Below are positions 21 through 11,608 of a DNA stretch of 11,710 nucleotides, in pieces; the first letter of the stretch is position 1, and the number at the start of each line of letters is the position of its first letter. The notes below the pieces were generated by a model. It was not told the origin of the DNA and did no database searches. It saw nothing but the letters and a program-made list of their open reading frames with translations. The stretch spans positions 1-11,710 of the forward strand of contig VSJD01000190.1 in assembly GCA_008636095.1 (NCBI GenBank), given 5' to 3'. The stretch is from Kiritimatiellota bacterium. GTDB lineage: Bacteria; Verrucomicrobiota; Kiritimatiellia; JAAZAB01. The translations under genes were made by a program, and so were the position numbers.

Positions 21-96
21 GCGAAGCCTTGGCGAAGACGGAAGCCTTGGCGAAGACGGGAGCCTTTGCGAAGACGGAAGCCCGGGCGAAGCAGGG
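21..96. repeat. 18-bp tandem repeat, about 4 degenerate copies
   Basis: The unit gcgaagacggaagccttg occurs at 32-49, with variant copies at 50-67 and 68-85. A truncated copy lies at 21-31 and the first six bases of another at 86-91. Because 18 is a multiple of three the array would stay in frame if translated, but no convincing gene covers it. It runs directly into the heptamer array that starts at 96. The 5' limit is uncertain because the window starts at 1. Confidence 0.7.
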
Positions 97-157
97 ACGA
101 CAGACGACGGACGACAGACGACCGCCCTGATTTAAAGGACGCCGGATGGAGGACGGA
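96..157. repeat. Degenerate heptamer array, left arm of inverted repeat around the S23-type gene
   Basis: Four consecutive 7-mers of the form GACGACN occupy 96-123 (gacgaca, gacgacg, gacgaca, gacgacc). Three more of the form GGAYGNN occupy 137-157. The array ends 4 bases before the stop codon of the small gene (162-164 on the minus strand). Bases 103-122 match the reverse complement of 664-683 at 19 of 20 positions, and 126-146 match the reverse complement of 633-653 at 16 of 21. The array is therefore the left arm of a long imperfect inverted repeat. Confidence 0.75.
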
Positions 158-161
158 TGCG

Positions 162-536
162 TTAGGTAAACGTTTCCGGCTTCTTGATCATGTTCCCCAA
201 CATTTTGCCGATCATTGCGCATTGCTTCTCCATGTCGTCGGTTTTAGGCTTGGTCGCATAACCATATTTAAGCGCCCGCCCCAGCCAATGTCGCGTCTCC
301 TGCAACTCTCCGTCGGCATCCGACAGTTTACTGATAAAATGAGCTGGGTATCGCCGCTTGGCCCAAGCTTCCGCAATGTTCGCCCCGATAGATCGCGACG
401 ACCGTCTGATTTGATCAATCAACGCATATTTTTCTTCTCTCGGCCATCTCTTTGTCTCTTCAAAAACAATCTCGTCTAAGCGGCAAGCCTCTTGATATAC
501 TCGCAATTCTGTAAAACTGTTTATCCTCTCCGCCAT
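162..536 (-). CDS. Four-helix bundle protein (S23/23S rRNA intervening-sequence type)
   Basis: A 124-residue protein of the S23/IVP four-helix bundle family (TIGR02436). The recognisable features are the opening SFTELRVYQEA, the central QIRRSSRSIGANIAEAWAKRR (about residues 42-62) with its RR-S-IGANIAE core, then FISKLSDADGELQETRHWLGRA leading to the last helices. Length is normal for the family and the ORF is intact. The start is set by a Shine-Dalgarno GGAAG five bases upstream of the ATG at 536. Some members lie in intervening sequences of 23S rRNA genes, but there is no rRNA here. The fold is related to Avd, the accessory protein of diversity-generating retroelements, yet no reverse transcriptase is in the window. 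The gene is solitary and bracketed by inverted heptamer arrays, and its G+C is lower than that of its neighbours, which hints at transfer. Molecular function is not established for the family. Family call is confident; role is unknown. Confidence 0.88.
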   Translation of the reverse strand: MAERINSFTELRVYQEACRLDEIVFEETKRWPREEKYALIDQIRRSSRSIGANIAEAWAKRRYPAHFISKLSDADGELQETRHWLGRALKYGYATKPKTDDMEKQCAMIGKMLGNMIKKPETFT

Positions 537-541
537 CTTGT

Positions 542-546
542 CTTCC
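542..546 (-). promoter_or_regulatory. Ribosome binding site of the S23-type gene
   Basis: On the minus strand GGAAG precedes the ATG at 534-536 by five bases, a good Shine-Dalgarno and spacing. This supports the start chosen. I found no convincing -35/-10 pair further upstream, where the sequence becomes repeat array. Confidence 0.5.
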
Positions 547-599
547 GATTCATGCTATGCTTAGTTGCGTCTTCCGTCCGCGCTCCGTTTTCTCTGGAC

Positions 600-687
600 T
601 GTCATCTGCCCTCTGTCGTCCGTCGTCTCCGTTCCGTTGTCCTTCTGATCAGGTCTGCCATCCGTCGTCTGTCATCCGTCGTCCGGC
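600..687. repeat. Degenerate heptamer arrays, right arm of inverted repeat
   Basis: Two arrays with period 7 are visible. At 600-641 there are six units of the type YGTCRTC (tgtcatc, tgccctc, tgtcgtc, cgtcgtc, tccgttc, cgttgtc). At 653-687 there are five of the type RTCYGYC (gtctgcc, atccgtc, gtctgtc, atccgtc, gtccggc). The second array ends at 687, immediately before the stop codon of the giant gene (688-690, TAG on the minus strand). Both carry reverse complements of the left arm; 613-627 is an exact 15-base inverted match to 103-117. Confidence 0.75.
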
Positions 688-3600
688 CTACGGCCACACC
701 GGCAAATAGCCCTCTCCGGGCCAGACCAAAAGTTCCGTCAACTGGTAGTCCGCACTGGAAAGCCACAGGCGCCATATGCCAAAAGCATCCCAGTACACGG
801 CCGGATCGGTCAGGCCATCCCCATCATAATCACCGGGCACGGCCACCGTTCCGGTATTGCCCCAACCTGGGGCGTTGGCCTCGGCGTAACCGCTGGCGGA
901 GAGCCATATTTTCCACGTGCCCGTGCTTGCCTGGAAAACGGCCGGATCCATAATCCCATCGAGATCATAGTCGGCCGGCACGGGACGATATCCGGATCCG
1001 CCCAGGCCTTCCGCGGTGATTGACGCATACTGCCAGTTGGACTGCCATACCCGCCAAGTGCCCGTGGACTCCTGATAAATCGCCGGGTCAGCCTTGCCGT
1101 CACCATCATAATCACCCGCCACCGGCCGCCAGCCTGTCCCACCGAGGCCCTGGGCCGATGCCATGGAATACCCGTTCACAGACAGCCAGACCCGCCAAGT
1201 GCCGCCCTGTCCTGAGCCTGCCTGCGGTGAGCTTGTCGAACCCGTCGAAGGAGTGGCCTGGTAAACCGCCGGATCAGCGAGGCCATCACCATCATAGTCG
1301 CTTGGCACAGGCTCGAATCCGGCGCCGCCGCAACCATAAATTTCCGCCAAGGCATAATCGCAGGAAGAGAGCCATATTTTCCAGGTCCCCGTGGCTTCCT
1401 GGTAGACCGCCAGGTCGGCCTTGCCGTCGCCATCGTAGTCGCTTGGCACGGCCTTGAATCCCACGCCGCCGTAGCCTGCCATTGTGAAACCCTGGGCCCC
1501 GAAGAACCAGACCTGCCAGGTGCCTGTGGACTCCTGGTACATGGCCAGGTCAGTATAGCCGTCGCCGTTATAATCGTTGACCAGCAGGAGCCCCGCCGGC
1601 TGGCTGGCGCCGATCCGGATAACGCCGCCATTGCGGTTGGTCGTGTTGTTGGCCAGGTTCGGATCCAGCCACTTCGTTGGCGCCGCATGCTGGATGTTCA
1701 CAAAGATGTAATACCAGCCCGGCAGGACCGTGGGCACCGCCAATGCGTCACGCCCAGCCTTCGGCAGGACCACGACCGCGCTGTTACCGACCGCCAGCGG
1801 GAGGCTCACATTGGTCCCACCCATCCATTTATCGTCTGTATCACCGAATACGGAATTGCTGGAAATGTAGAAGTTATAGGCCACCCAGGTATTCGGTTCG
1901 GCCATATTCTGCACGCCGTAGTTCGTGACCCGGAAAGACACCGCGGCCGGCGCGCCGTCGACGGCCATACAGGTCGGCAGGAACACTAGGTCGGAGACGC
2001 CGATATCCACCTCCCTCAGCGCCCGGTAGCCGCTGTCGTAAGGGCTGAAGTCGCTGACGAACTGCGTGGTCTTGGCCTTGACCCAGTAATAATACATCAC
2101 ACCCTGCACTGAATCGGTGTCGTCGTAGGCATTCGTGGCCACGTCATTGACCAACATCAGCGCGGCAGCGCGGTCGCTGTTCGTACCCCGCCATAACTCA
2201 TAGTTGGAGGCATTGTCCGAAACGCTCCAAGTCACGTACAGGTGCTCCACGGACACGCCATCGCTGGCCGATATCGCGGAGGGCGGCGTCAGCGGGCAGT
2301 AGCCGGTATCGAACCCGCTCAATTCACTGGGGCCAATGGGGCCGAACTGGTTGGTGGCTTGAATCCAGTAATAATAGCGCAGGCCTGGGCGGGCCTGGGT
2401 ATCCGAATAGGTCGTCCCATACTCGATCCCTAACGGCGTAGTCAGCGACCAGGGCGTATAGGAATCCTGGCGATACACTTCGTAACCCGTGGCGTTAGTG
2501 GCGGCGTTCCACGTCACGATCACCTGGTTTTCATCCGTGCCATCGGTGGCATTGACGTTCAACGGCACAGGCGGCACCGTGCCGCCGATATCAGGATCGC
2601 TGAAGTCGGCGCTTATACCATAGGCGTTCTTGGACCGCACCCAGTAATAATAGCCGATGCCGCGCTCGATAATCAGGTCGTAATAATTTGTCGAGGCTGT
2701 TTCGTATAGATTGGACGCCGTAGCCGAATCATTTGTCACGTTGCGATAGATGAGGTAACTCGTGGCCGCGGATTCATTCGACCACGACACAATGATTTTG
2801 GTGTGGTAATCGCCTTTCGATGCGGTAACCGCCTGCGGCGGCGGCAGAAGGCGATAACCATTAGTCGAAACACTGAATTCACTCATACCGTATTCATTGG
2901 TAGCGCGAATCCAGTAATAGTAAACCTGGAAGGGCGTGGAGTTCACGTCGTTATAGTTCGTCCCATTGGTAACCGCCAAATAATTGAAGCCGGCGGGAAT
3001 GCCATTGCTCGTGTTGCGATATACCGCGTAATTGGTGGCGTAATCCGAGGCGTTCCAGGCGACAGCCACTGCCGGGAAGTAGTTCGTGCTGGCCGTGATA
3101 TTAGTGGGGCACTGGGGCGGCGTGCCGCCATTGGTGCCGACGCTGAAGTCGCTGATGCCGGCCGCCCCATTGCCGGCCTTTACCCAGTAATAATAAGTCA
3201 AGCCGCGGGTAAATGTCGTGTTCGTAAAGCCCGTAATGTTCGTGGTCGTCAACAGGACTGCGGTATTGGTGGCATTGGTCTGACTGTGCCAGAGGTAATA
3301 CATGTTCGCATTCGATGAGGCGTTCCACGTGATGACGATTTCATTGGTAGGATTCCCCTGGCTGGCGATCACATTCGTCGGCGGCAAAGGCGGCACGCCG
3401 CTTGAAGACGAATCGCTGAAATCGCTCATGGCCACCGGCGTCGCCACCCGGACCCCGTAATAATAAATCATGCCCGGCGAAATGTTGGTATCCACGCAAT
3501 TGGTCGTCAGCAGGGTATTGATTAACGCATTCGTGCCCGGTTCGTTCGTACCGCGCCACAGTTCGTAATAATCGGCATTGGGATCCCCGCTCCAGCTCAC

Positions 3601-6600
3601 GTTCAGATAGTCGCCGGTGGGAGACGCCGTCAGGCCCGTGGGCTTGAGAATCCGGGCCGCATCGAACGCGGCGTTGCCGGTGCGCAGGACATCGTGCCGG
3701 GCGGTGGGCCAATTGGTCCGGGCCGTTGGCGCCGGTCCGAAAATCGCGTAAAGATATTTTTCGTCCGTCATGTATATCGTACCGTCGCGCTGAATCAGGG
3801 GTGAATTATAAAACACATACTCATTACATGGTAAGACCCAATTGGTTGTTCCATTGGGATTGAACGAACACAGGCCATTGGTGTATGACCCAACAACAAT
3901 AAAGCCGCCGCTATCAATCGCCGGTGATGATTTTATTGCGCCGTCCGTAACCCATACTTTACCCGTTGTGCCATCGGGATAGAACTCGTAGAGATTGCTC
4001 CCGCCACCGACATAAATCATGCCATTGGATCCAATCGTGGGCGCCACATAAACCGGCCCGGCGGTCGCCCAAGCTTGCGTGGAACCGGGATTGGTCGGAT
4101 CAAAGCAGAGCAGTTCATTGCCATTGCCGATATAGATGCGCCCGTCTGGGCCAATGGCTGGCGAAGCTGAATACGTGACATTGGGCATGGACCAGGATTG
4201 TATTTCGTTCCCATTTGTCTGGTTCAAGATGTAAAGCCAGGCCGCGTTCGCGCTGGCCGCTATGATCGTGCCGTTGGAGGCAATGGCCAAAGACGCATAC
4301 ACACTGGAGGCCAGCGTATTAGTCCATAAGCCAACTCCGTTGGTCCCGTCATCGCGTACAGCGTAAATTTTACTGCTCAAGGTGCCGAAATAAATGGTGC
4401 CATTACTACCGATCGCCGGTGAACTTTCAAAAGCCTTCCCACTGCCGCTGAAAGTCCAATTGACACCACCCGTGGGACTGATCGCCTGCAGGGCCCCCGA
4501 GTCCGTCGTTATATAAATGGTCCCATTGGTCGCGATGGCGGGCGTACAGCCCAAGCCGGTAACATCATCCAATGCACTATTCACCAGTAGGCCCGTGGCA
4601 CTGCATTTCCAGCGCTGGCGCCCTTGCGCATCAAAAGCATAGAGGTTGGAGCCGGCCCCGCAATAAACGGTCCCATCCCAACCCAAGCTCGGCGAGCCGG
4701 CCATATTAGTTAGAGCCACCTGCCATTTGAGTGAGCCGTAGGCCAGGCCGGAACCCAGCTTGGTCACAAATCCGTAATCGTTTGTCTGGCCGGTGCGGTC
4801 GTTATCGTAAGCGCGCAGTGTCGCGGGGAAGTTAGTGGAAGCCGTGGCACCGGCCACGAACAGGGAAAAGCTATCGGCCTGCAGTGCCATGGCGTAAGCG
4901 CTGTCGTTGGTTGCGCCACCCAGGTAGGTCGAGGCCTGCAACGTGTCGCCGGTGCCAAAATATGAAATAAACGCATCACGCCCGCCGTTGGCGGTGGTAT
5001 CGTAGGCATTAGCCGTGACGGGGAAATTTGAGGAAGTCGTCCAGCCGGCCACATAAATCCGGAGCGAATTGGTCGAGGCCGCGGCAAGCACTGCCGTGGC
5101 CTCGTCATCGTCCGTGCCGCCCAAATAGGTGGAGGCCAGGATATTAGTGAGCGCCAGATCCAGCCGGGTCAGAAACGCGTCCTTCCCGCCCATTAACCGG
5201 TTGGTGTAGCCGGTGGCCAGCACGTTGTTGGTCGGGTTCTGGGGATAGTTGGTGGAGGTCGTGTAGCCCACCACGCACACGATGTTGGTGAACGGCGCCA
5301 CGGCAATTCCATTGGCCACCTCGTTGCTCGTACCGCCCAGGAACGTGGAAGCATTCAGATTGGTCAGGGCAATAGACAATCTGGCCACAAAGACGTCGCG
5401 GACGCCGCCGCAGTACGTCCGGACAGCCCCGTTGGTCATAGGGAAATTGGTCGAGGTCGTATAGCCCGCCACATAGACAAAATTATTCGTGTCAAGGGCT
5501 ATGCCGTAGGCGCCGTCATCATTCGTGCCGCCCAGATAAGTGGACGCAAGGTTGGCGCTCAGATTCGTATTGAACCGAATCACAAACGCGTCGTTCGAGC
5601 GCACTGAGCCCGACAGGTTGGTCTGGAACGAAGTGGTCCCGAATGTGTTAGCGATCGGGAAATTGGTCGAGGAGGTCAGGCCGGCCACGAACACGTCCTG
5701 CGTCGGCCCCGCGCGCAGCGCCAGGGCATAGGCCATATCCACATTCGTCCCGCCCAGGTAGGTCGAGGCCGTCAGCGTCGTTAAATTGCTGTTGAGGACC
5801 GACACGAAAGCGTCATAGTCGCCGCCCCGGTAGGTATCATAGAGCGCATTCGTTATGGGAAAATTAGTCGAGGCCGTGTAGCCCGCCACGTAGACGTAGC
5901 CGTTATTGGAATTGATGGCCATGGCCATGATTTTATCTTCGTCCACACCGCCCAGGTAGGTGGCGGCCAGCAGGTTGGTGAGCTGGGGATCGAACTTGGC
6001 AATAAAGCCGTCGTAGCTTCCACCGTTATAAGAGTTTGTATCGTAGCTGTTGGTGGTGGGAAAATCCGTGGAGGCCGTGTAGCCCGCCACGAGTACATTG
6101 GTCTGACTATCCAGGGCCATGGCGCTGATGACATTGCTGCTCGATCCGCCGATAAACGTGGAGGCCAACAGAGGATCAATCACCAGCGGACGAGCGGCAT
6201 CGAACGCGCCCACGCAAAAACCGACCTGGTCGCCCTCCAGCGCGTAAGCCACGCTCACGCTTTGACGTTCCCCGGCCGCGCCCCTCTGGTAGGCCACCGG
6301 CGCCGTGAAACGCACGGGGCCCAAGGCGGTGCGCGCTTCCAGCTCGCCTGCGGGCGTAATGCGCACGTCCTCGGCGCCGGCCAGGCGCAGGGCAATCCGG
6401 GCGGGGTCCGCGCCGGGCGCGACGGTGAAAATCTTTTCGACGTTGTCGCCGGTGGCACGCACTTCCAGCGCAACGCCTTCATAAATATCGCCGAACTGCA
6501 CCCCGGTAAATGAGGGAATATTGGCCTTCCAACGGCAGGGATCGTTGCCAATGAACGAATTGATCACGGCCCCGGAGCGCTCCGCACCCGTCGGCAACGC

Positions 6601-7071
6601 CGTCAGGTCGGCATCCACCAGCGTCTCGCGAATGACCGCCGTCCGGCTGACCTCTGACCTCTGACCGCTGACCGCTTCTGCCTTCGGCAACGCATAGATT
6701 ATCTCGCCCTCAGCCGTCACATAGACCGTGCCGCCGAAGGTGCGGGCATAGAACAGTACCTGGGGATCGGCGATCTGCCCCTGGTTTTGTATGAAGGGCA
6801 CGCTCAAAGGAATTGCCGATTTTCGATTGCCGATTTCTGATTGAGATCCGATAGGAGGAATTGCGGACCCCGCCTTTGGCGGGGCAAGTTGCGGACCCCG
6901 CTCTGAGCGGGGTAAACTTGCCTGCCACGCGCTGCGCGTGGTCCCGCGTTGCGCGGGATTGTTGATTGCGGATTGCCTGCCCGGAGCCGCGCTCGCAATC
7001 AAGGCAAATCCGAGCGTGCCGGCCAGCACGACCAGCACGAATAGAAAACCATGCTTTATTATGGAAGCCAT
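688..7071 (-). CDS. Giant secreted multidomain protein (DUF7948-like, SBBP, PQQ-type propeller, FN3, CARDB-like, FG-GAP)
   Basis: About 2127 residues from the ATG at 7071. The ORF can be extended by six codons to a GTG at 7089, but the ATG has GAGAAG four bases upstream and begins a clean signal peptide (MASIIKHGF, then FLFVLVVLAGTLGFALIASAA, cleavage near residue 30). Approximate order: low-complexity linker 31-88; DUF7948-like domain 89-300 (FIQNQGQ, FYARTFGGTVYV, NSFIGNDP, FTVAPGADPARI, RPLVIDPLL); seven SBBP repeats 301-780 (ASTYLGG ... VYVAGYTxSTNFP); about eight PQQ-type propeller blades 780-1135 (GTIYxG ... LYAF); six FN3 domains 1140-1683 (WNAS ... YYYWVKA); CARDB-like domain 1684-1820; six FG-GAP/VCBS repeats of about 47 residues to the C terminus, with calcium-type DYDGDGxxD loops. 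There is no C-terminal sorting signal, no transmembrane segment beyond the signal peptide, and no enzymatic motif. It is probably exported to the surface or outside the cell, for binding or adhesion; that is inference. Three repeat-type insertions lie in frame (listed separately). Confidence 0.9.
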   Translation of the reverse strand: MASIIKHGFLFVLVVLAGTLGFALIASAAPGRQSAINNPAQRGTTRSAWQASLPRSERGPQLAPPKAGSAIPPIGSQSEIGNRKSAIPLSVPFIQNQGQIADPQVLFYARTFGGTVYVTAEGEIIYALPKAEAVSGQRSEVSRTAVIRETLVDADLTALPTGAERSGAVINSFIGNDPCRWKANIPSFTGVQFGDIYEGVALEVRATGDNVEKIFTVAPGADPARIALRLAGAEDVRITPAGELEARTALGPVRFTAPVAYQRGAAGERQSVSVAYALEGDQVGFCVGAFDAARPLVIDPLLASTFIGGSSSNVISAMALDSQTNVLVAGYTASTDFPTTNSYDTNSYNGGSYDGFIAKFDPQLTNLLAATYLGGVDEDKIMAMAINSNNGYVYVAGYTASTNFPITNALYDTYRGGDYDAFVSVLNSNLTTLTASTYLGGTNVDMAYALALRAGPTQDVFVAGLTSSTNFPIANTFGTTSFQTNLSGSVRSNDAFVIRFNTNLSANLASTYLGGTNDDGAYGIALDTNNFVYVAGYTTSTNFPMTNGAVRTYCGGVRDVFVARLSIALTNLNASTFLGGTSNEVANGIAVAPFTNIVCVVGYTTSTNYPQNPTNNVLATGYTNRLMGGKDAFLTRLDLALTNILASTYLGGTDDDEATAVLAAASTNSLRIYVAGWTTSSNFPVTANAYDTTANGGRDAFISYFGTGDTLQASTYLGGATNDSAYAMALQADSFSLFVAGATASTNFPATLRAYDNDRTGQTNDYGFVTKLGSGLAYGSLKWQVALTNMAGSPSLGWDGTVYCGAGSNLYAFDAQGRQRWKCSATGLLVNSALDDVTGLGCTPAIATNGTIYITTDSGALQAISPTGGVNWTFSGSGKAFESSPAIGSNGTIYFGTLSSKIYAVRDDGTNGVGLWTNTLASSVYASLAIASNGTIIAASANAAWLYILNQTNGNEIQSWSMPNVTYSASPAIGPDGRIYIGNGNELLCFDPTNPGSTQAWATAGPVYVAPTIGSNGMIYVGGGSNLYEFYPDGTTGKVWVTDGAIKSSPAIDSGGFIVVGSYTNGLCSFNPNGTTNWVLPCNEYVFYNSPLIQRDGTIYMTDEKYLYAIFGPAPTARTNWPTARHDVLRTGNAAFDAARILKPTGLTASPTGDYLNVSWSGDPNADYYELWRGTNEPGTNALINTLLTTNCVDTNISPGMIYYYGVRVATPVAMSDFSDSSSSGVPPLPPTNVIASQGNPTNEIVITWNASSNANMYYLWHSQTNATNTAVLLTTTNITGFTNTTFTRGLTYYYWVKAGNGAAGISDFSVGTNGGTPPQCPTNITASTNYFPAVAVAWNASDYATNYAVYRNTSNGIPAGFNYLAVTNGTNYNDVNSTPFQVYYYWIRATNEYGMSEFSVSTNGYRLLPPPQAVTASKGDYHTKIIVSWSNESAATSYLIYRNVTNDSATASNLYETASTNYYDLIIERGIGYYYWVRSKNAYGISADFSDPDIGGTVPPVPLNVNATDGTDENQVIVTWNAATNATGYEVYRQDSYTPWSLTTPLGIEYGTTYSDTQARPGLRYYYWIQATNQFGPIGPSELSGFDTGYCPLTPPSAISASDGVSVEHLYVTWSVSDNASNYELWRGTNSDRAAALMLVNDVATNAYDDTDSVQGVMYYYWVKAKTTQFVSDFSPYDSGYRALREVDIGVSDLVFLPTCMAVDGAPAAVSFRVTNYGVQNMAEPNTWVAYNFYISSNSVFGDTDDKWMGGTNVSLPLAVGNSAVVVLPKAGRDALAVPTVLPGWYYIFVNIQHAAPTKWLDPNLANNTTNRNGGVIRIGASQPAGLLLVNDYNGDGYTDLAMYQESTGTWQVWFFGAQGFTMAGYGGVGFKAVPSDYDGDGKADLAVYQEATGTWKIWLSSCDYALAEIYGCGGAGFEPVPSDYDGDGLADPAVYQATPSTGSTSSPQAGSGQGGTWRVWLSVNGYSMASAQGLGGTGWRPVAGDYDGDGKADPAIYQESTGTWRVWQSNWQYASITAEGLGGSGYRPVPADYDLDGIMDPAVFQASTGTWKIWLSASGYAEANAPGWGNTGTVAVPGDYDGDGLTDPAVYWDAFGIWRLWLSSADYQLTELLVWPGEGYLPVWP
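1204..1251 (-). repeat. 48-bp REP-like insertion in frame within an FG-GAP repeat
   Basis: The third FG-GAP repeat reads AVYQAT-PSTGSTSSPQAGSGQG-GTWRVW, whereas its neighbours read AVYQEATGTWKIW and AIYQESTGTWRVW. The extra 16 residues correspond to exactly 48 bases and keep the frame. On the minus strand the DNA begins ccttcgacgggttcgacaag and ends with ggctcaggacag. From memory this resembles a short repeat scattered in many environmental bacterial genomes, whose translated form (SPQAGSGQ) appears inside unrelated proteins. The boundaries follow from the repeat alignment and could shift by a few bases. Confidence 0.7.
6647..6674. repeat. Heptamer array ctgacct/ctgaccg inside the giant gene
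   Basis: Four consecutive 7-mers (ctgacct twice, then ctgaccg twice) are translated on the minus strand as part of EAVSGQRSEVSRTA. They lie in the DUF7948-like domain, between IIYALP and the TAVIRETL segment, probably in a surface loop. The words recur in a true spacer: gctgacctctg at 6646-6656 is identical to 10466-10476. This is an intergenic-type repeat sitting in coding sequence. Confidence 0.7.
6811..6845. repeat. Heptamer array of gattgcc type inside the giant gene
   Basis: Five 7-mers (aattgcc, gattttc, gattgcc, gatttct, gattgag) are translated on the minus strand as SQSEIGNRKSAIP in the linker between signal peptide and first domain. Period 7 read in triplets gives a peptide period of seven residues. 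The same word family returns at 6957-6977, so the four palindromes lie between two stretches of this array. Confidence 0.7.
6868..6958. repeat. Four 17-nt palindromes in the linker coding region
   Basis: Four perfect short inverted repeats, each 17 nt, lie at 6868-6884 (ccccgcc, loop ttt), 6896-6912 (ccccgctc, centre t), 6925-6941 (ccacgcgc, centre t) and 6942-6958 (tcccgcg, loop ttg). The second extends to 19 nt (6895-6913). The stems differ in sequence but all keep perfect pairing. The first two share the 13-base lead ttgcggaccccgc (6861-6873 and 6889-6901). They are translated as the Arg/Pro-rich linker NPAQRGTTRSAWQASLPRSERG and what follows, just after the signal peptide. In mRNA they could fold into four adjacent hairpins. 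Confidence 0.8.
6957..6977. repeat. Heptamer array gattgtt/gattgcg/gattgcc
   Basis: Three consecutive 7-mers of the same family as 6811-6845. They lie inside the giant gene just downstream (on the mRNA) of the signal-peptide codons and directly beside the last palindrome. Confidence 0.6.
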
Positions 7072-7075
7072 GTAA

Positions 7076-7081
7076 CTTCTC
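7076..7081 (-). promoter_or_regulatory. Ribosome binding site of the giant gene
   Basis: On the minus strand GAGAAG ends four bases before the ATG at 7069-7071. It decides for this ATG over the upstream in-frame GTG at 7089, which has only repeat sequence in front of it. The arm of the 7083-7212 inverted repeat ends two bases upstream of this site, so a leader hairpin could influence initiation. Confidence 0.5.
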
Positions 7082-7082
7082 A

Positions 7083-7212
7083 GATTCACGGTTCAAGGGT
7101 TCAAGGGTTCAAGGGTTCAAGGAAATATGGAATTAAGAATGCAGAGTTTTTTCAACCTGAGTCGGACATTCTGCCTTCTACATTTCTTCATCCAACCGTT
7201 GAACCGTGAACC
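7083..7212. repeat. Inverted repeat with GGTTCAAG octamer array in the leader of the giant gene
   Basis: Four perfect tandem copies of the 8-mer ggttcaag occupy 7090-7121. Bases 7083-7099 match the reverse complement of 7196-7212 at 15 of 17 positions, with an exact core tcacggttcaa (7086-7096 against 7199-7209). The right arm also has period-7 spacing (ccaaccg, ttgaacc, gtgaacc from 7192). The enclosed 96 bases contain no gene. Confidence 0.65.
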
Positions 7213-7247
7213 AGTACACCCACCAACTTGAGTAATCTATTAGTTGT

Positions 7248-7276
7248 AGAATACATAATGGCGCAATTCATGTCGA
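7248..7276 (-). promoter_or_regulatory. Possible sigma-70-like promoter of the giant gene
   Basis: On the minus strand TCGACA (7271-7276, five of six to TTGACA) is followed after 17 bases by TATTCT (7248-7253, four of six to TATAAT). It would give a leader of about 170 nt running through the octamer/inverted-repeat block. No strong terminator separates it from gcvPB, so read-through from the gcv operon is also possible. This is a weak match in an AT-rich stretch. Confidence 0.28.
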
Positions 7277-7330
7277 GCGCTGTTTGATATTTTTTTGGGC
7301 ATCCTTTTCGTGTATTTCGGTAAAAAAACC

Positions 7331-8788
7331 TTATTCGCTTTTCTTCTCTTTAAATGCCAAATCCATATTCCGGGCGGCGGCGACTTCATCTAACCGCCCC
7401 ACGGTTGTCGTTACGGGCGCGGCATGCAATGCCGCGGGATTGGCGCGGGCCGTTTGCGCCAGCTCACGCATGGCCTGGATGAACGCATCCAGCGTTTCGC
7501 GGGTTTCCGTTTCCGTAGGTTCGATCATCATGGCCTCCGGCACAATCAGCGGAAAATAGACCGTGGGCGGATGGAACCCGCGATCAATCAGCCCCTTGGC
7601 AATATCCATGGCCCGCACCCCGCCGGCGACTAACGACTTGGCGCTCAGCACGCACTCGTGCATGCAATGATCGCTGACGGCCGGGAAAATATCCTTCAAC
7701 TTGCTCAGGACATAATTGGCATTGAGCACCGCGTGGTCGCTGACTGCACGCAGACCCTCGCGGCCCAGGAGGAGCAGGTAGGCATAGGTGCGCACCAGCA
7801 CGCCAAAATTGCCGTAGAACGGCGCAACGTAACCGATGCTCTTGGGATAATCATAATCCAGGCTGAAGGTGCCGTCCCTGGTCTTGACCACCCGCGAAAT
7901 CGGCAGGAACGGACGCAGGCGTTCCACGACGCCCACCGGCCCGGCGCCGGGCCCGCCCCCGCCGTGCGGCGAGGCAAAGCTCTTGTGCGGATTCAGGTGG
8001 CAGACATCGAAGCCCATCTCCGCGGGCTTGCAGCGCCCCATGATGGCGTTAAAATTGGCGCCATCGTAATACATGAGCCCATCCACGGCGTGAATCAAGT
8101 CGGCGATCCGGCGCACATCGGGCTCAAAAAGCCCCAGGGTGTTGGGATTAGTCATCATCATGCCGGCCGTCTCGGCATTAATAAATCCCTTCAATTTTTC
8201 CACATCCACCGTGCCTTGCGCCGTAGATGGCGCCGCCACCACCTGGAATCCGGCCAGCGCGGCGCTGGCCGGATTGGTGCCATGCGCGGAATCTGGAATC
8301 AGAATATGTTTTTTGGTATTGCCACGGTCGCGGTGATAGGCCGCGATCAACATGGCGCCGGTCAATTCACCATGCGCGCCCGCCAGCGGCTGGAGCGTAA
8401 ATTCCGCCATCCCGGCAAGCTCGGCCAGCAGTCGTTCGGTTTCGTAAAGCAGGCGCAGGGCGCCCTGGGTCAACTGCCCGCCACCCCGCAGTTGCGGCCA
8501 GAGCGGATGAATCCCGACGAAACCGGGATGTTGGGCCACCACTTCGCAAGCCTTGGGATTATATTTCATGGTGCAGGAGCCGAGCGGGTAAAACTGGGTA
8601 TCCACCGAAAAGTTGAGCCGCGACAGATTGGTGAAATGCCGCACCACTTCGATTTCAGGCACCTCCGGCAATTCCGCCGGCCGCGCGCGCAGGAGCCGTT
8701 TCTGGATCAGCTCCCGTCCCGGCACGGTGCGGCGCGGTGCACGCACCGCCCGCCGCCCCGCCACGCTTTTTTCGTAAATAAGTTTCAT
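7331..8788 (-). CDS. gcvPB: Glycine dehydrogenase (aminomethyl-transferring) subunit 2
   Basis: C-terminal half of the two-part P-protein of the glycine cleavage system. With subunit 1 it forms the PLP enzyme that decarboxylates glycine and passes the aminomethyl group to the lipoyl arm of H-protein, in the cytoplasm. The 485 residues match the family length. Visible motifs are LIYEKSVAGRR at the start, LNFSVDTQFYPLGSCTMKYNPK (about 58-79), IPDSAHGTNPASA (164-176), MMTNPNTLGLFE (211-222), the PLP-binding segment HLNPHKSFASPHGGGGPG with Schiff-base Lys269, and ALHAAPVTTTVGRLDE near the end. The ATG at 8788 gives the expected N terminus but lacks a clear Shine-Dalgarno. It lies 216 bp after gcvPA, a spacer filled with repeats; last gene of the probable gcv operon. 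I see no clear intrinsic terminator behind it. Confidence 0.96.
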   Translation of the reverse strand: MKLIYEKSVAGRRAVRAPRRTVPGRELIQKRLLRARPAELPEVPEIEVVRHFTNLSRLNFSVDTQFYPLGSCTMKYNPKACEVVAQHPGFVGIHPLWPQLRGGGQLTQGALRLLYETERLLAELAGMAEFTLQPLAGAHGELTGAMLIAAYHRDRGNTKKHILIPDSAHGTNPASAALAGFQVVAAPSTAQGTVDVEKLKGFINAETAGMMMTNPNTLGLFEPDVRRIADLIHAVDGLMYYDGANFNAIMGRCKPAEMGFDVCHLNPHKSFASPHGGGGPGAGPVGVVERLRPFLPISRVVKTRDGTFSLDYDYPKSIGYVAPFYGNFGVLVRTYAYLLLLGREGLRAVSDHAVLNANYVLSKLKDIFPAVSDHCMHECVLSAKSLVAGGVRAMDIAKGLIDRGFHPPTVYFPLIVPEAMMIEPTETETRETLDAFIQAMRELAQTARANPAALHAAPVTTTVGRLDEVAAARNMDLAFKEKKSE

Positions 8789-8804
8789 AATTTGTAACTA
8801 TTCA

Positions 8805-8894
8805 CCACCGGATGGCACGGATAAAAACGAAGCCATATAAATGATTAATAAAATATGGTTTTCCTTCTATCAGTGTTATCCGTGATATCCGTGG
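8805..8894. repeat. Long imperfect hairpin in the gcvPA-gcvPB spacer
   Basis: The left arm ccaccggatggcacggataa (8805-8824) pairs with ttatccgtgatatccgtgg (8876-8894), 17 of 19 after one gap. Inside, gaagccatat (8829-8838) faces atatggttttc (8853-8863), extending the pairing as an interrupted stem. The right arm contains a 9-base direct repeat (atccgtgat, atccgtggt). It could be a processing or attenuation hairpin within the operon, or a REP-like element; the sequence does not decide. Confidence 0.55.
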
Positions 8895-8916
8895 TAAAAA
8901 TGTCTTTAGTTGTGTG

Positions 8917-9004
8917 TCGTCTGGCGCCCTCTTCAGTCTTCTCCGCTCTCTCATTCGACGTTGGGCGTTCGATGTTGGATGTTCGATGTTTGCTTATTCA
9001 GTAT
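8917..9004. repeat. Heptamer array and shared words behind gcvPA
   Basis: Five 7-mers of the form TTSGRYG occupy 8954-8988 (ttcgacg, ttgggcg, ttcgatg, ttggatg, ttcgatg). A shorter pair (attcagt, attcagc) starts at 8996 and runs into the gcvPA stop codon (9005-9007). Upstream, gtcgtctggcg (8917-8927) and cttcagtcttctccg (8931-8945) recur exactly in the other gcv spacer at 10504-10514 and 10478-10492, in opposite order. No gene is seen here. Confidence 0.7.
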
Positions 9005-10366
9005 TCAGCAGAGCGCCGCTTCCAGCGCGGCGGCCAGGCAGTCAATTTCCTCCTTGGTGCGCTTCTCAGTGAAGGCCACCAGCAGGACCGACTCCATCCC
9101 GCGGTAATAGCGTCCTGCCGGGAACCCGGCGGCAATGCCCTTGTCAATCAGCGTGCTGATCACATCCGCCGCGTTGGCGGGAAGGGAAAGCGCAAACTCG
9201 TTAAAAAAATTGGAGTGGAAGGCCGGCTTGACGCCGGGAATGGCCGTCAACTTCTGCCAGCCGTAGGAGGCGTTGGCCGCGCACAGTTCGGCGACCTCCA
9301 CCAGGCCGGTTTTGCCCATGAGGCTCAGGTAAATGAGCGCGCGCAAGGCGCACAAGGCCTCGGCCGTGCAGATATTGGAGGTAGCTTTCTCGCGGCGGAT
9401 ATGCTGTTCGCGCGCCTGGAGCGTCAGCACAAAGCCGCGCCGCCCCTGGGCATCATGTGTGGCGCCGACTAAGCGGCCGGGCATTTTATGCGCGTAAAGC
9501 TTGCGCGTGGTCATGAAACCCAGGTACGCTCCACCGAAGGAAAGCGGCAGGCCCAGGCTCTGGCCTTCGCCGGTGACGATATCCGCGCCCATGGCGCCGG
9601 GCGTCTTGACAATGCCCAGGGCCAGGGGATACACGGACACGATTCCCAACGCACCGGAGCGGTGGGCCGCCGCAATGAGGTCGCTCAAATCATCCAGGCA
9701 CCCGAAAAAATTTGGGTTTTGCACAATGACCGCCGCGACGTCGCGGGTTAATTGCGCCTGGAAGGCGGCGCGATCGGTCAGGCCATCGCGCAGAGGGATC
9801 TCCACAAACTCAAACGCCAGGTTGGCCGAATAGCATTTCAGCATCGTCCGGTAAATCGGGTTGACGCCCTCGTCAATCAGGACGCGGCGGCGGCGCGTGA
9901 TACGGAAGGCCATCATCGTGGCCTCGAAGAGCGCCGTGCCGCCGTCGTAAAGCGAGGCATTGGCAACCTCCATCTCCGTCAGCCGCGTCATGGCGGTCTG
10001 AAATTCATAGATGGCCTGCAGGGTGCCTTGCGCAACTTCCGGCTGATAGGGCGTGTAGGCCGTGTAGAACTCGGCGCGCCCGGCCAGGGCATCCACGGCG
10101 GCCGGGATAAAATGATCATAAAACCCGCCGCCACAGAAATTCACCAGGTTGCGCGCATTCGCGTCCGCCAATTCCGCGAGCCGCCGGGTCATTTCCATTT
10201 CCGAGAGGCCTGCCGGCAGGCGGAAGGCGTCCGTCTGCAGGTCCGGCGGAATCGCCGCGAACAATTCATCAACTCCCGCCAGCCCCAGCGTCGCCAGCAT
10301 CGCGGAATCATCGGCGGGGCTATTGGCCTGAAATGCTTGTGTTTGGGTCATAATCGTGGCAACCAT
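9005..10366 (-). CDS. gcvPA: Glycine dehydrogenase (aminomethyl-transferring) subunit 1
   Basis: N-terminal half of the two-part P-protein; pairs with GcvPB to decarboxylate glycine and load H-protein. The 453 residues are normal for subunit 1. Diagnostic segments are MLATLGLAGVDELFAAIP (23-40), NFCGGGFYDHFIPAAVD (76-92), EFYTAYTPYQPEVAQGTLQAIYEFQT (99-124), MEVANASLYDGGTALFEA (132-149) and GEGQSLGLPLSFGGAYLGFM in the second half. Two starts are possible, ATG 10366 and ATG 10351 (MTQTQAF); neither has a clear Shine-Dalgarno and homology begins later, so the longer one is kept. The heptamer array at 10374-10415 ends seven bases before the first ATG, so it would form the sequence entering the initiation region. 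Its stop codon abuts another repeat array. It is 162 bp behind gcvT and probably co-transcribed. Confidence 0.96.
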   Translation of the reverse strand: MVATIMTQTQAFQANSPADDSAMLATLGLAGVDELFAAIPPDLQTDAFRLPAGLSEMEMTRRLAELADANARNLVNFCGGGFYDHFIPAAVDALAGRAEFYTAYTPYQPEVAQGTLQAIYEFQTAMTRLTEMEVANASLYDGGTALFEATMMAFRITRRRRVLIDEGVNPIYRTMLKCYSANLAFEFVEIPLRDGLTDRAAFQAQLTRDVAAVIVQNPNFFGCLDDLSDLIAAAHRSGALGIVSVYPLALGIVKTPGAMGADIVTGEGQSLGLPLSFGGAYLGFMTTRKLYAHKMPGRLVGATHDAQGRRGFVLTLQAREQHIRREKATSNICTAEALCALRALIYLSLMGKTGLVEVAELCAANASYGWQKLTAIPGVKPAFHSNFFNEFALSLPANAADVISTLIDKGIAAGFPAGRYYRGMESVLLVAFTEKRTKEEIDCLAAALEAALC

Positions 10367-10373
10367 AACTCAG

Positions 10374-10415
10374 GTGTTCAGTGTTCAGTGTTCAGTGTTC
10401 GGAGTTCGGTATTCG
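10374..10415. repeat. Drifting heptamer array GTGTTCA upstream of gcvPA
   Basis: Six consecutive 7-mers run gtgttca, gtgttca, gtgttca, gtgttcg, gagttcg, gtattcg, and a weaker seventh (gtatcgg) follows at 10416-10422. The changes accumulate in one direction along the array, away from gcvPA. The array lies seven bases upstream of the gcvPA start codon (on the minus strand it reads tgaacac units). Confidence 0.8.
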
Positions 10416-10459
10416 GTATCGGACGGATTGGACGGATGTTTCCTGTCCGCCGACACCGA
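10413..10459. repeat. Imperfect inverted repeat in the gcvT-gcvPA spacer
   Basis: Bases 10413-10427 (tcggtatcggacgga) pair with 10446-10459 (reverse complement tcggtgtcggcgga) with one gap and one mismatch, leaving an 18-base loop. It may be a hairpin in the operon mRNA between gcvT and gcvPA. It is not followed by a U-run, so it is not a typical terminator. Confidence 0.4.
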
Positions 10460-10500
10460 CCGACCGCTGACCTCTGTCTTCAGTCTTCTCCGGCCCACCC

Positions 10501-10528
10501 TCCGTCGTCTGGCGTCTGTCCTCCGTCA
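10501..10528. repeat. Heptamer array immediately behind the gcvT stop codon
   Basis: Four 7-mers (tccgtcg, tctggcg, tctgtcc, tccgtca) follow the pattern TCYGKCN and end at 10528, directly adjoining the gcvT stop codon (10529-10531, TGA on the minus strand). The family is the same as at 600-687 beside the S23-type gene. Confidence 0.7.
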
Positions 10529-11608
10529 TCAGGAACGCGCTGTTCCTTTTTTATACAGCGGCAGGGCCTCCACCCGGGCGCTCAACGATTTCCCACGGAC
10601 CGTAATGGTCAGCACCTCGCCCGGGCGGCTCACGGCCTGGTCAACGTACGCCAGCGCCACGGCCACGTTCAGGCTGGGCGCAAACAGGCCACTCGTCACT
10701 TCCCCCACTCCAACCCCATCTTTCATCACCAAATCACCCGCGCGCCCCGCCATGCGGCCTTCCAACAAAAGGCCCACCAGTACCCGGTAGGCTCCGGTTT
10801 CCAGTTCGCGCCGCACCGCTTCCCGTCCGATAAACGGCTTGGCCATGTCCAGGAACCGCCCCCGGCTGACGCCCGTCGGCCGCCACTCACGGCGCAATTC
10901 GTGGCCATACAGGGGATAACCCATTTCCACGCGCAAGGTGTCACGTGCGCCCAGGCCGGCGGGCAGAATCTGACCGGACTTCAGCAGGAGGTTCCAGAAG
11001 CGGGGGACTTCGTTCGCGGGCACATAAAGCTCATAGCCAAATTCACCGGTATAGCCGGTGCGGCTCAAAAGGCACGGTGTATCCTGGATCGTCAGTTCCT
11101 GAAAGTGAAAATAGCCCAAAAGCGGCAGGACCTGACCTAACGCCGCTTCCACACTCAAGCGGGCGCAAGATCCCTGGATATCAAGCTTGGCCATGGCCGG
11201 TGAAAGATCCGTGAAAGTCGTACGCGGCGAAAGGTGCGCCCGAATCCAATTCCGGTCGCCGGCCAATGTGCCGGCGTTAACCACCAGCCAGAACCGGTCG
11301 GCACCCAAGCGAAAACAGATGACGTCATCCTGCACGCCGCCATCTTCCGCCAGCAGGTAGCCATAGGCGCAGGCACCGGGTTTCAGTGCGGCCACGGATA
11401 AGGTCACCAGCCGTTCCAAGTCCGCTTCGGCGGTCGCGCCCTTGATTTCGAATTCGCCCATGTGGCAGATATCGAAGACCGACGCATGCGCACGGGTCCA
11501 GAGGTGTTCGGGAATAATGCCGCGATAGACGAGCGGCATCTCCCATCCCGCGAACGGGACCATCCGGGCGCCCAAGGCTACGTGGTCGTTATGAAGCGGT
11601 GTTTGCAT
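10529..11608 (-). CDS. gcvT: Aminomethyltransferase, glycine cleavage T-protein
   Basis: Takes the aminomethyl group from H-protein and tetrahydrofolate to give 5,10-methylene-tetrahydrofolate and ammonia. 359 residues from the ATG at 11608, normal for the family. Motifs: QTPLHNDHVALGARMVPFAGWEMPLVY (2-28), SVFDICHMGEFEIKG (43-57), GGVQDDVICFR (90-100) with the conserved Asp pair of the folate/active site, GYTGEFGYELYVP, GLGARDTLRVEMGYPLYGHEL, and GEVTSGLFAPSLNVAVALAYV in the C-terminal part. The ORF continues upstream to 11686, but those 26 codons match nothing in T-proteins and overlap a good promoter, so the inner ATG is chosen; it lacks a clear Shine-Dalgarno. First gene of the probable gcvT-gcvPA-gcvPB unit. 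The usual gcvH is not between it and gcvPA. Confidence 0.96.
   Translation of the reverse strand: MQTPLHNDHVALGARMVPFAGWEMPLVYRGIIPEHLWTRAHASVFDICHMGEFEIKGATAEADLERLVTLSVAALKPGACAYGYLLAEDGGVQDDVICFRLGADRFWLVVNAGTLAGDRNWIRAHLSPRTTFTDLSPAMAKLDIQGSCARLSVEAALGQVLPLLGYFHFQELTIQDTPCLLSRTGYTGEFGYELYVPANEVPRFWNLLLKSGQILPAGLGARDTLRVEMGYPLYGHELRREWRPTGVSRGRFLDMAKPFIGREAVRRELETGAYRVLVGLLLEGRMAGRAGDLVMKDGVGVGEVTSGLFAPSLNVAVALAYVDQAVSRPGEVLTITVRGKSLSARVEALPLYKKGTARS

Follow-up and report, generated by a model that had tools for sequence, protein, structure and literature searches.

Inverted heptamer arrays around an S23/IVP gene

We analyzed an 11,710-nucleotide stretch of DNA from a Kiritimatiellota bacterium (the window; contig VSJD01000190.1 of assembly GCA_008636095.1, here contig C296 of the 3.8-Mb genome G000). 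The window holds five minus-strand genes, encoding an S23/IVP four-helix-bundle protein, a giant protein, GcvPB, GcvPA, and GcvT, together with degenerate arrays of 7-bp words, and our subject is the small, very probably mobile element that the first of these genes forms with the arrays beside it. The original prediction, made from the letters of the window, held that period-7 arrays exist here. When 28-bp spans in which 15 or more of 21 positions match at lag 7 were collected, 12 hits were found (nine after overlaps were merged) versus 0 to 3 for periods 4 to 6 and 8 to 12, confirming that claim. Lag-7 identity was 0.411 in intergenic DNA and 0.256 in genes, and intergenic identity at lags that are not multiples of 7 was 0.22 to 0.35. 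The element consists of the following features.

84..128, no strand: left arm, GACGACR heptamers (lag-7 scan, 90-128; inverse of 653-688 and 599-621)
162..536, minus strand: S23/IVP four-helix-bundle gene of the element (PF05635, 1.3e-30; TIGR02436, 4.2e-29)
598..628, no strand: right arm, inner array, inverse of GACGACR (lag-7 scan and inverted match)
653..696, no strand: right arm, outer array, abutting the giant-gene stop at 688 (scan, 657-696, and inverted match)

The PF05635 match exceeds the cut-off of the family, and the protein also matches the structures PDB 2gsc (XCC0516; 8.1e-9) and PDB 2rld (9.9e-9). The left arm is the inverse of 653-688 over 36 nt (78% complementary) and of 599-621 over 23 nt (83% complementary), so that inverted GACGACR arrays stand on both sides of the window's own S23 gene. 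When the minus strand of 88-696 was folded as RNA, the outer right array paired with the left arm, and a long array stem closed the IVP open reading frame (ORF) at -215.8 kcal/mol (z of -4.2 against 20 shuffles). An 18-bp repeat, GAAGCCTTGGCGAAGACG, adjoins the S23 element in 3.8 copies at 23-91.

IVP genes elsewhere were compared in the same way. PF05635 matches numbered 12 in G000, 6 in G001, 9 in G002, 8 in G003, and 5 in G004, the five genomes of the genus, and among 30 genus loci a period-7 array lay within 230 bp of the IVP gene upstream in 20, downstream in 18, and on both sides in 17. We then scored arms as the best ungapped inverted match between the two flanks, counted as matches minus mismatches, with a threshold of 16. 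This threshold was reached by 25 of 31 genus IVP genes (31 out of the 40 matches) and by 57 of 71 class IVP genes drawn from the best-scoring part of a class-wide search, which together gives 82/102 IVP genes versus 8/229 control genes. The eight high-scoring controls are not all clean, since L031 7239-7622 is a GxxExxY gene and L049 875-1918 and L067 5217-6065 adjoin IVP elements. For 75/102 IVP genes, versus 12/229 controls under the same rule, one flank could be assigned an arm word whose inverse stood on the opposite flank. The period was 7 in 64 of these 75, 8 in 8, 6 in 2, and 9 in 1.

The same design was found in many bacterial phyla. From at least 584 loci that one motif recovered, the best 80 formed a set of named loci; the arm score was at least 16 in 60 of these, and the period was 7 in 46 and 8 in 15, with none in 19. 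The sources include Bacteroidetes, Verrucomicrobia, planctomycetes, Proteobacteria, Acidobacteria, Clostridia, Selenomonadales, Hydrogenedentes, an ANME-1 archaeon, and more. Twelve IVP loci, all cyanobacterial, were read from a total of 33 IVP-bearing plasmid records. Eleven of the 12 scored at least 16, and in those 11 the identity of the left arm peaked at lag 7 among lags 5 to 9 (0.68 to 0.93). Judged from sequence, these results show an element in which the gene is flanked by two inverted arrays of one word, 7 bp or, less commonly, 8 bp in length. At L263 (Vreelandella sedimenti), the arms are nearly 200 nt long with an inverted-register score of 122, and one arm looks like a copy of the other.

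Inheritance of arm words, copies, and empty sites

Words were compared between 64 period-7 elements, in pairs across genomes, and were counted as shared at no more than 1 mismatch in any rotation, read on the IVP strand. A common word was found in 18/18 pairs with an IVP identity of at least 0.8, in 36/50 at 0.6 to 0.8, in 30/220 at 0.45 to 0.6, and in 89/1,686 below that, and the opposite-strand mean word distance stayed at 2.7 to 3.3. None of 2,000 permutations reached the observed value at identities of 0.45 to 0.8; at 0.35 to 0.6 there was no word effect (1,111/2,000). Part of the sharing is vertical inheritance, because some pairs represent the same site in two species. The IVP elements L122 (G000:C53) and L119 (G004:C17), with proteins 65% identical, are apparently such a site; both arms diverge between the species and match inside each element. 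More generally, when kin were defined as elements with IVP proteins at least 60% identical, the arms of one element were closer to each other than to kin arms in 69 versus 19 of 94 pairs, with 6 ties. These data show that, across the genomes compared, the arm word is inherited with the IVP lineage. The array "families" of the original prediction are arm words, each belonging to its own IVP lineage.

The period behaves likewise. On a FastTree IVP tree with 110 rows of period 7 and 22 of period 8, 13 changes between the two were required; 200 shuffles needed 20.7 on average and never fewer than 17. It had been suggested that a copying process counts seven bases. Since period 7 or 8 follows the IVP tree, any counting would belong to the element and not to general slippage. 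The other suggestion, simple repeats selected for their spacing, found no support, as the arrays behave like the terminal arms of mobile elements.

Copies of the same lineage were found at different sites with the likeness confined to the element: L118 and L114 over 427 nt (88.5%), L113 and L121 over 448 nt (90.2%), and L103 and L107 over 430 nt (83.0%). The remaining hits in these comparisons were short repeat matches. L055 and L067, which have no ORF and lie at different sites, are 77.6% similar across 205 alignment columns. Their alignments to L113 and L121 include both ends of the latter but leave out ~305 bp, and we read them as deletion copies. The L055 fold had a z of -6.0 (200 shuffles).

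Filled and empty versions of one site were found in four sets of Nostocales plasmids, in which the flanks of the relatives are 88 to 98% identical. In set 1, the empty site AAAAAGTAA/ttaacaaataaatATG (the slash marking the point of insertion) corresponds to AAAAAGTAA, the element, and TAAttaacaaataaatATG in the filled one, and L305 has one arm at this site without the gene. In set 2, the two arms, but not the gene, are present in L308 at the filled copy's left junction. In set 3, the right arm has turned into the start of the next annotated ORF. TAA is repeated in set 1, and the target-site reading is ambiguous in sets 2 to 4. Copies at unrelated sites, and plasmid sites that are filled, empty, or occupied by ORF-less remnants, show mobility.

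In all four sets, the element starts directly behind the upstream stop codon. This position was measured for 132 elements scoring at least 16, from 182 loci of which the remainder scored lower or had short flanks. An upstream neighbor was present for 129 of the 132, and 109 of these 129 neighbors face the element with their stop. The distance from stop to arm had a median of 6 bp and was 10 bp or less in 70/109; that from arm to next start had a median of 15 bp (n = 83). These distances show that complete elements lie mostly just behind a stop codon. An enrichment of arrays near stops had been predicted, and it was seen for complete IVP elements but not for arrays overall, of which 49 were nearer a stop and 45 nearer a start (n = 94). 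Stop adjacency arises because the elements sit tightly between the stop codon of one gene and the gene that follows. Moreover, empty spacers measure just 3, 3, 13, and 52 bp, and stop adjacency is therefore expected of most spacer insertions, with no stop-specific mechanism needed for most. Stop-codon recognition as the main principle was rejected on these grounds. A function as stops in all frames (7 = 1 mod 3) was considered and set aside: several words lack any stop triplet, and two arrays stand within the frame of the giant gene.

Lone arrays in the window, the genus, and the class

A genome sample of 491 kb was assembled from 41 sequences, comprising 20 systematic contigs, 20 chosen partly for arrays or length, and the window, and was split into intergenic and coding DNA with our own simple gene-calling script. 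It contained 100 intergenic and 33 coding period-7 arrays, compared with 3 and 44 for period 6, 6 and 0 for period 8, and 0 and 2 for period 9; shuffled spacers gave 0.3 period-7 arrays. The 20 systematic contigs alone (200 kb) held 36 intergenic period-7 arrays versus 0, 2, and 0 for periods 6, 8, and 9. The genome-wide excess of period 7 over 6, 8, and 9 had thus been foreseen correctly. The 100 intergenic arrays comprise 48 distinct words. The description of a constant period with differing words, of several families in one genome, and of unit-by-unit drift was also right.

Most arrays (119/133) are more than 300 bp from any IVP gene. When 88 intergenic lone arrays were compared with the IVP-arm words of the genus, 50 matched exactly, 34 were one letter off, and 4 were two off, while letter-shuffled words gave 2.6, 35.5, and 48.9. 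Since shuffled words also are mostly one or two letters off, only the exact class is informative. Among arrays no more than 1.5 kb apart, inverted same-word pairs made up 23/100 versus 272/5,000 random pairs. We read many lone arrays as probable relics or non-autonomous copies, which fits L305 and L308; independent slippage may account for a share of them. The remaining features of the window are as follows.

688-7089 as listed, minus strand: giant protein gene; an ATG near 7071 is the likelier start by comparison with G002
6636..6688, no strand: period-7 array in the giant ORF, TGACCNC units (lag-7 scan; G002 comparison)
6812..6844, no strand: period-7 array in the giant ORF, CGATTGC/CGATTTC units (lag-7 scan; G002 comparison)
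7085..7210, no strand: ORF-less inverted pair with an 8-bp GGTTCAAG word in the gcvPB-giant spacer (arms 7085-7101 and 7194-7210, 17 nt, 94% complementary)
7331-8788, minus strand: gcvPB
8809..8891, no strand: ORF-less inverted pair with a ~9-bp CACGGAT word (arms 8809-8824 and 8876-8891, 16 nt, 88% complementary), a word as found around GxxExxY genes (compare L282)
8954..8999, no strand: lone array, AACATCG word, the arm word of the L045 IVP element (lag-7 scan and word match)
8997..9009, no strand: two ATTCAGT units over the gcvPA stop codon, read from the sequence and under the scan threshold
9005-10366, minus strand: gcvPA
10367..10424, no strand: lone array, AACACTG/AACACCG word, the arm word of the L113 IVP element (scan and word match)
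10459..10490, no strand: lone array, ACCTCTG word, the arm word of L104/L108/L109 (scan and word match)
10499..10533, no strand: lone array, AGGACGG word (GACGACR group), reaching the gcvT stop at 10529 (scan and word match)
from 10529, minus strand: gcvT

Six window arrays lie away from the S23 gene. The four that are intergenic have exact arm words; the other two, within the giant ORF, differ from an arm word by a single letter. The array at 10367..10424 terminates in ACACCTGAG, as does L055. Eight arrays had been listed in the original prediction. Six pass the scan (90-128, 598-628, 657-696, 8954-8999, 10367-10424, and 10499-10533), but two are weak: the GGAYGNN array at 137-157 is visible by eye and undetected by the scan, and the "attcagt" array has only two units (~8997-9009), the second of which contains the gcvPA stop codon. 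The arrays at 10459-10490, 6636-6688, and 6812-6844 were absent from that list. The reported distances to stop codons hold in the sequence: array and stop are 0 bp apart at the giant gene and at gcvT and 4 bp apart at S23, and they overlap at gcvPA. The statement that only gcvPB lacks an array is correct for period 7, but the gcvPB-giant spacer holds an 8-bp GGTTCAAG array at 7090-7122.

Comparison of the same spacers between strains, which had been proposed, revealed array replacement between congeners. The DNA of the gcv locus is 86 to 94% identical to that of three congeners, yet the spacers have been replaced. The gcvPA stop is followed by CTGAATA and AACATCG units in the window, by GACGACAG in G002, and by ATGCAGA and ACGAAGA in G004; in G003 it is followed by CTGTAGA units, an IVP gene (L103), and inverted CTGTAGA units, in that order. 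The array at 6636-6688 (GGTCAGA), within the frame of the giant gene, is replaced by an AAAATCG array at the G002 counterpart (L076).

One word as a marker of the system was rejected. The GAC pattern was present in 5/5 genus genomes, in 0/5 from other genera of the family, and in 2/28 others, and its reversed control matched in G001 only (6 times). Period-7 arrays per 100 kb numbered 22.0 and 13.0 in two genomes of the window's genus, 4.9, 3.3, 10.0, and 18.7 in four IVP-rich class genomes, and 4.0, 5.1, 8.0, and 1.9 in four that are IVP free; intergenic counts from the simple caller are meaningless for G029 and G067 (no genes called) and G024 (few called). The period-7 excess is weak or absent in the eight other class genomes, with no clear tie to the number of IVP genes, and heavy accumulation of arrays is therefore a trait of the window's genus.

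Explanations for the arrays and comparison with known systems

The arrays are, very probably, the terminal arms of small mobile elements of ~430 to 600 bp with a single gene, for the S23/IVP four-helix-bundle protein. The arms would form a long hairpin, as RNA or, during replication, as single-stranded DNA. This hairpin would be bound by the IVP protein, which would help the element into gaps or nicks, and host enzymes would do the chemistry of movement; for the binding and helping by IVP, we consider the chances about even. Hairpin-templated copying would keep both arms alike, and whole-unit slippage would change arm length, so that the word drifts while the register stays. The gene of the window element belongs to no catalytic family in Pfam or NCBIfam, where only the IVP family was found, and mobility in trans is therefore assumed. 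This lack of a catalytic domain is one of several points that weigh against the mobile-element explanation. Clear target duplications were not found in the four Nostocales sets, and an arm score of 16 was not reached at 20/102 and 20/80 IVP genes. The controls, 229 genes, all come from the window's genome; none were matched to the named or plasmid sets. No exact arm word was found for 38/88 lone arrays, for which a one-letter difference is also given by shuffled words, and IVP-rich genomes of other genera do not have clearly more period-7 arrays than IVP-free ones. Three genus IVP genes by an apparent cas4 (L112, L116, and L117) have no arms. Heptamer arms are present at the cyanobacterial plasmid IVP genes L300 and L302, which lie between cas6 and cas4.

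Ordinary polymerase slippage would make the arrays spacer microsatellites among which IVP genes merely happen to lie. Heptamers are over-represented in bacterial spacers and the slippage idea has been published (PMC4692102, accessible text), units drift and vary in number, and some lone arrays have no IVP word. Against slippage stand inverted matched arms around one protein family, a word inherited with the protein, transposed copies, and filled and empty sites; it is already disfavored by these findings and is highly improbable. It is very unlikely that the arrays are host regulatory sites for translation or RNA processing, kept by selection and bound by IVP. The adjacency of elements to stops and starts would suit such sites, a translational role has been proposed for TAACTGA repeats (PMC4679880, in part), and RNase III cuts the stem of the Coxiella intervening sequence (IVS) according to the available portion of PMC4990558, but words and presence vary between near-identical operons, and relics and deletion copies exist.

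Two further explanations name the enzyme that moves the element. Hairpin ends are typical substrates of Y1 (HUH) transposases, and enzymes associated with repetitive extragenic palindromic (REP) sequences may mobilize those sequences. A Y1 transposase acting in trans on the hairpin ends is unlikely as the mover: Y1_Tnp was found in 17/20 genomes looked at but not in the element-holding G002 (70% complete), G017 (95%), and G032 (94%). Movement by a reverse transcriptase that works on the stem-loop RNA after excision, assisted by IVP as a partner like Avd, the accessory protein of diversity-generating retroelements, is quite unlikely. IVP resembles Avd (bAvd, 6.5e-9; NF033474, 9.7e-11; both under the cut-off), their homology is stated in the accessible text of PMC10053308, and a stem plus an ORF resembles the 23S rRNA IVS. 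On the other hand, RVT_1 was present in 52/116 class genomes and was not found in the IVP-rich G024 (18 IVP), G079 (20), G067 (16), G021 (15), and G057 (13), which are 91 to 98% complete; elements there may be old, so this is not decisive. Either enzyme as an obligatory mover was rejected, as each was not found in several element-bearing genomes, which is weak evidence where genomes are incomplete. A wider form of the mobile-element explanation is tentative and somewhat doubtful. It would place minimal mobile elements lacking a known nuclease, transposase, or reverse transcriptase across the whole domain, with an end word that is free and a word length set by the protein (7 or 8 bp for IVP and perhaps ~9 bp for GxxExxY); the protein or a machine that it recruits would count bases, and such elements would be a main source of heptanucleotide repeats in bacterial spacers.

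The element resembles the 23S rRNA IVS with an S23p ORF (Coxiella, Leptospira, and others; PMC4990558, in the text available) in its homologous protein, its length of ~430 nt, and the inverted-repeat stem around the ORF, and the window element combines an S23/IVP-family ORF with stem-forming inverted ends. In the Coxiella IVS, tandem heptamers (GACAGAT) before the S23p start vary in number between strains (same excerpt). In contrast to these IVS, the elements described here lie in spacers of protein genes, both arms are heptamer arrays, and words differ by lineage, with several lineages in one genome. The window element is not inside an rRNA gene; no Rfam family was found in the window, and protein genes flank the element. 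Known heptanucleotide repeats include the short tandemly repeated repetitive (STRR) sequences of heterocystous cyanobacteria, GGGAATC in Xanthomonas, GGGGA(T/C)T in Nostoc, and TAACTGA in Beggiatoaceae (PMC4692102 and PMC4679880, both in part). They too are degenerate spacer arrays with several words per genome and strain differences in 7-nt steps, as far as those texts go, and degenerate tandem spacer heptamers with several words occur in the window's genome as well. Within the same portions they have no IVP gene and no inverted element, apart from a remark on paired Nostoc repeats, whereas here the arrays are tied to an IVP element. The STRR sequences had been cited as an analogy; with inverted heptamer arms at 11 of 12 cyanobacterial-plasmid IVP genes, the likeness may be homology. 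As with insertion sequences and miniature inverted-repeat transposable elements, copies with defined ends stand at different sites, and empty sites exist in the four plasmid sets; short length, inverted ends, and deletion derivatives at several sites (L055 and L067) recall the miniature elements in particular. Unlike these, the parent has no transposase, the window element encoding none of its own, and the ends are arrays instead of a fixed inverted repeat. Avd is a homologous four-helix-bundle protein (PMC10053308, accessible text), but its models match under their cut-offs and the window has no reverse transcriptase. None lies beside the window IVP gene, the only locus at which adjacency was checked, and the sole RVT_1 match of G000 is on contig C278. 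In the literature searched, no paper joined IVP or S23 genes to heptamer arrays except for the Coxiella remark; most subscription journals and preprints were outside that search, and an earlier description is possible.

If correct, the mobile-element explanation would account for orphan "S23 ribosomal protein" or "four helix bundle protein" genes outside 23S rRNA and, at least in part, for the origin of heptanucleotide repeats in bacterial spacers; the occurrence of one design in many phyla may explain a part of them. It portrays a moving element for which no enzyme is obvious, and it predicts a heritable match of protein lineage to repeat word that can be checked in any genome. Such elements would also reshape gene ends, with array sequence at stop codons, in N-termini (set 3), and inside an open frame (6636-6688 and 6812-6844).

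A second family has a comparable arrangement. GxxExxY genes (TIGR04256) gave 16 matches in four of five genomes, and those at L275-L289 lie between inverted short arrays of longer words (ACACGGATN and CGCAAAGAT). The arm score was at least 16 in 11 of the 13 examined, a small sample with no control. The best lag of the arms was 9 in 6 of the 13, and in one more it was 9 tied with 7.

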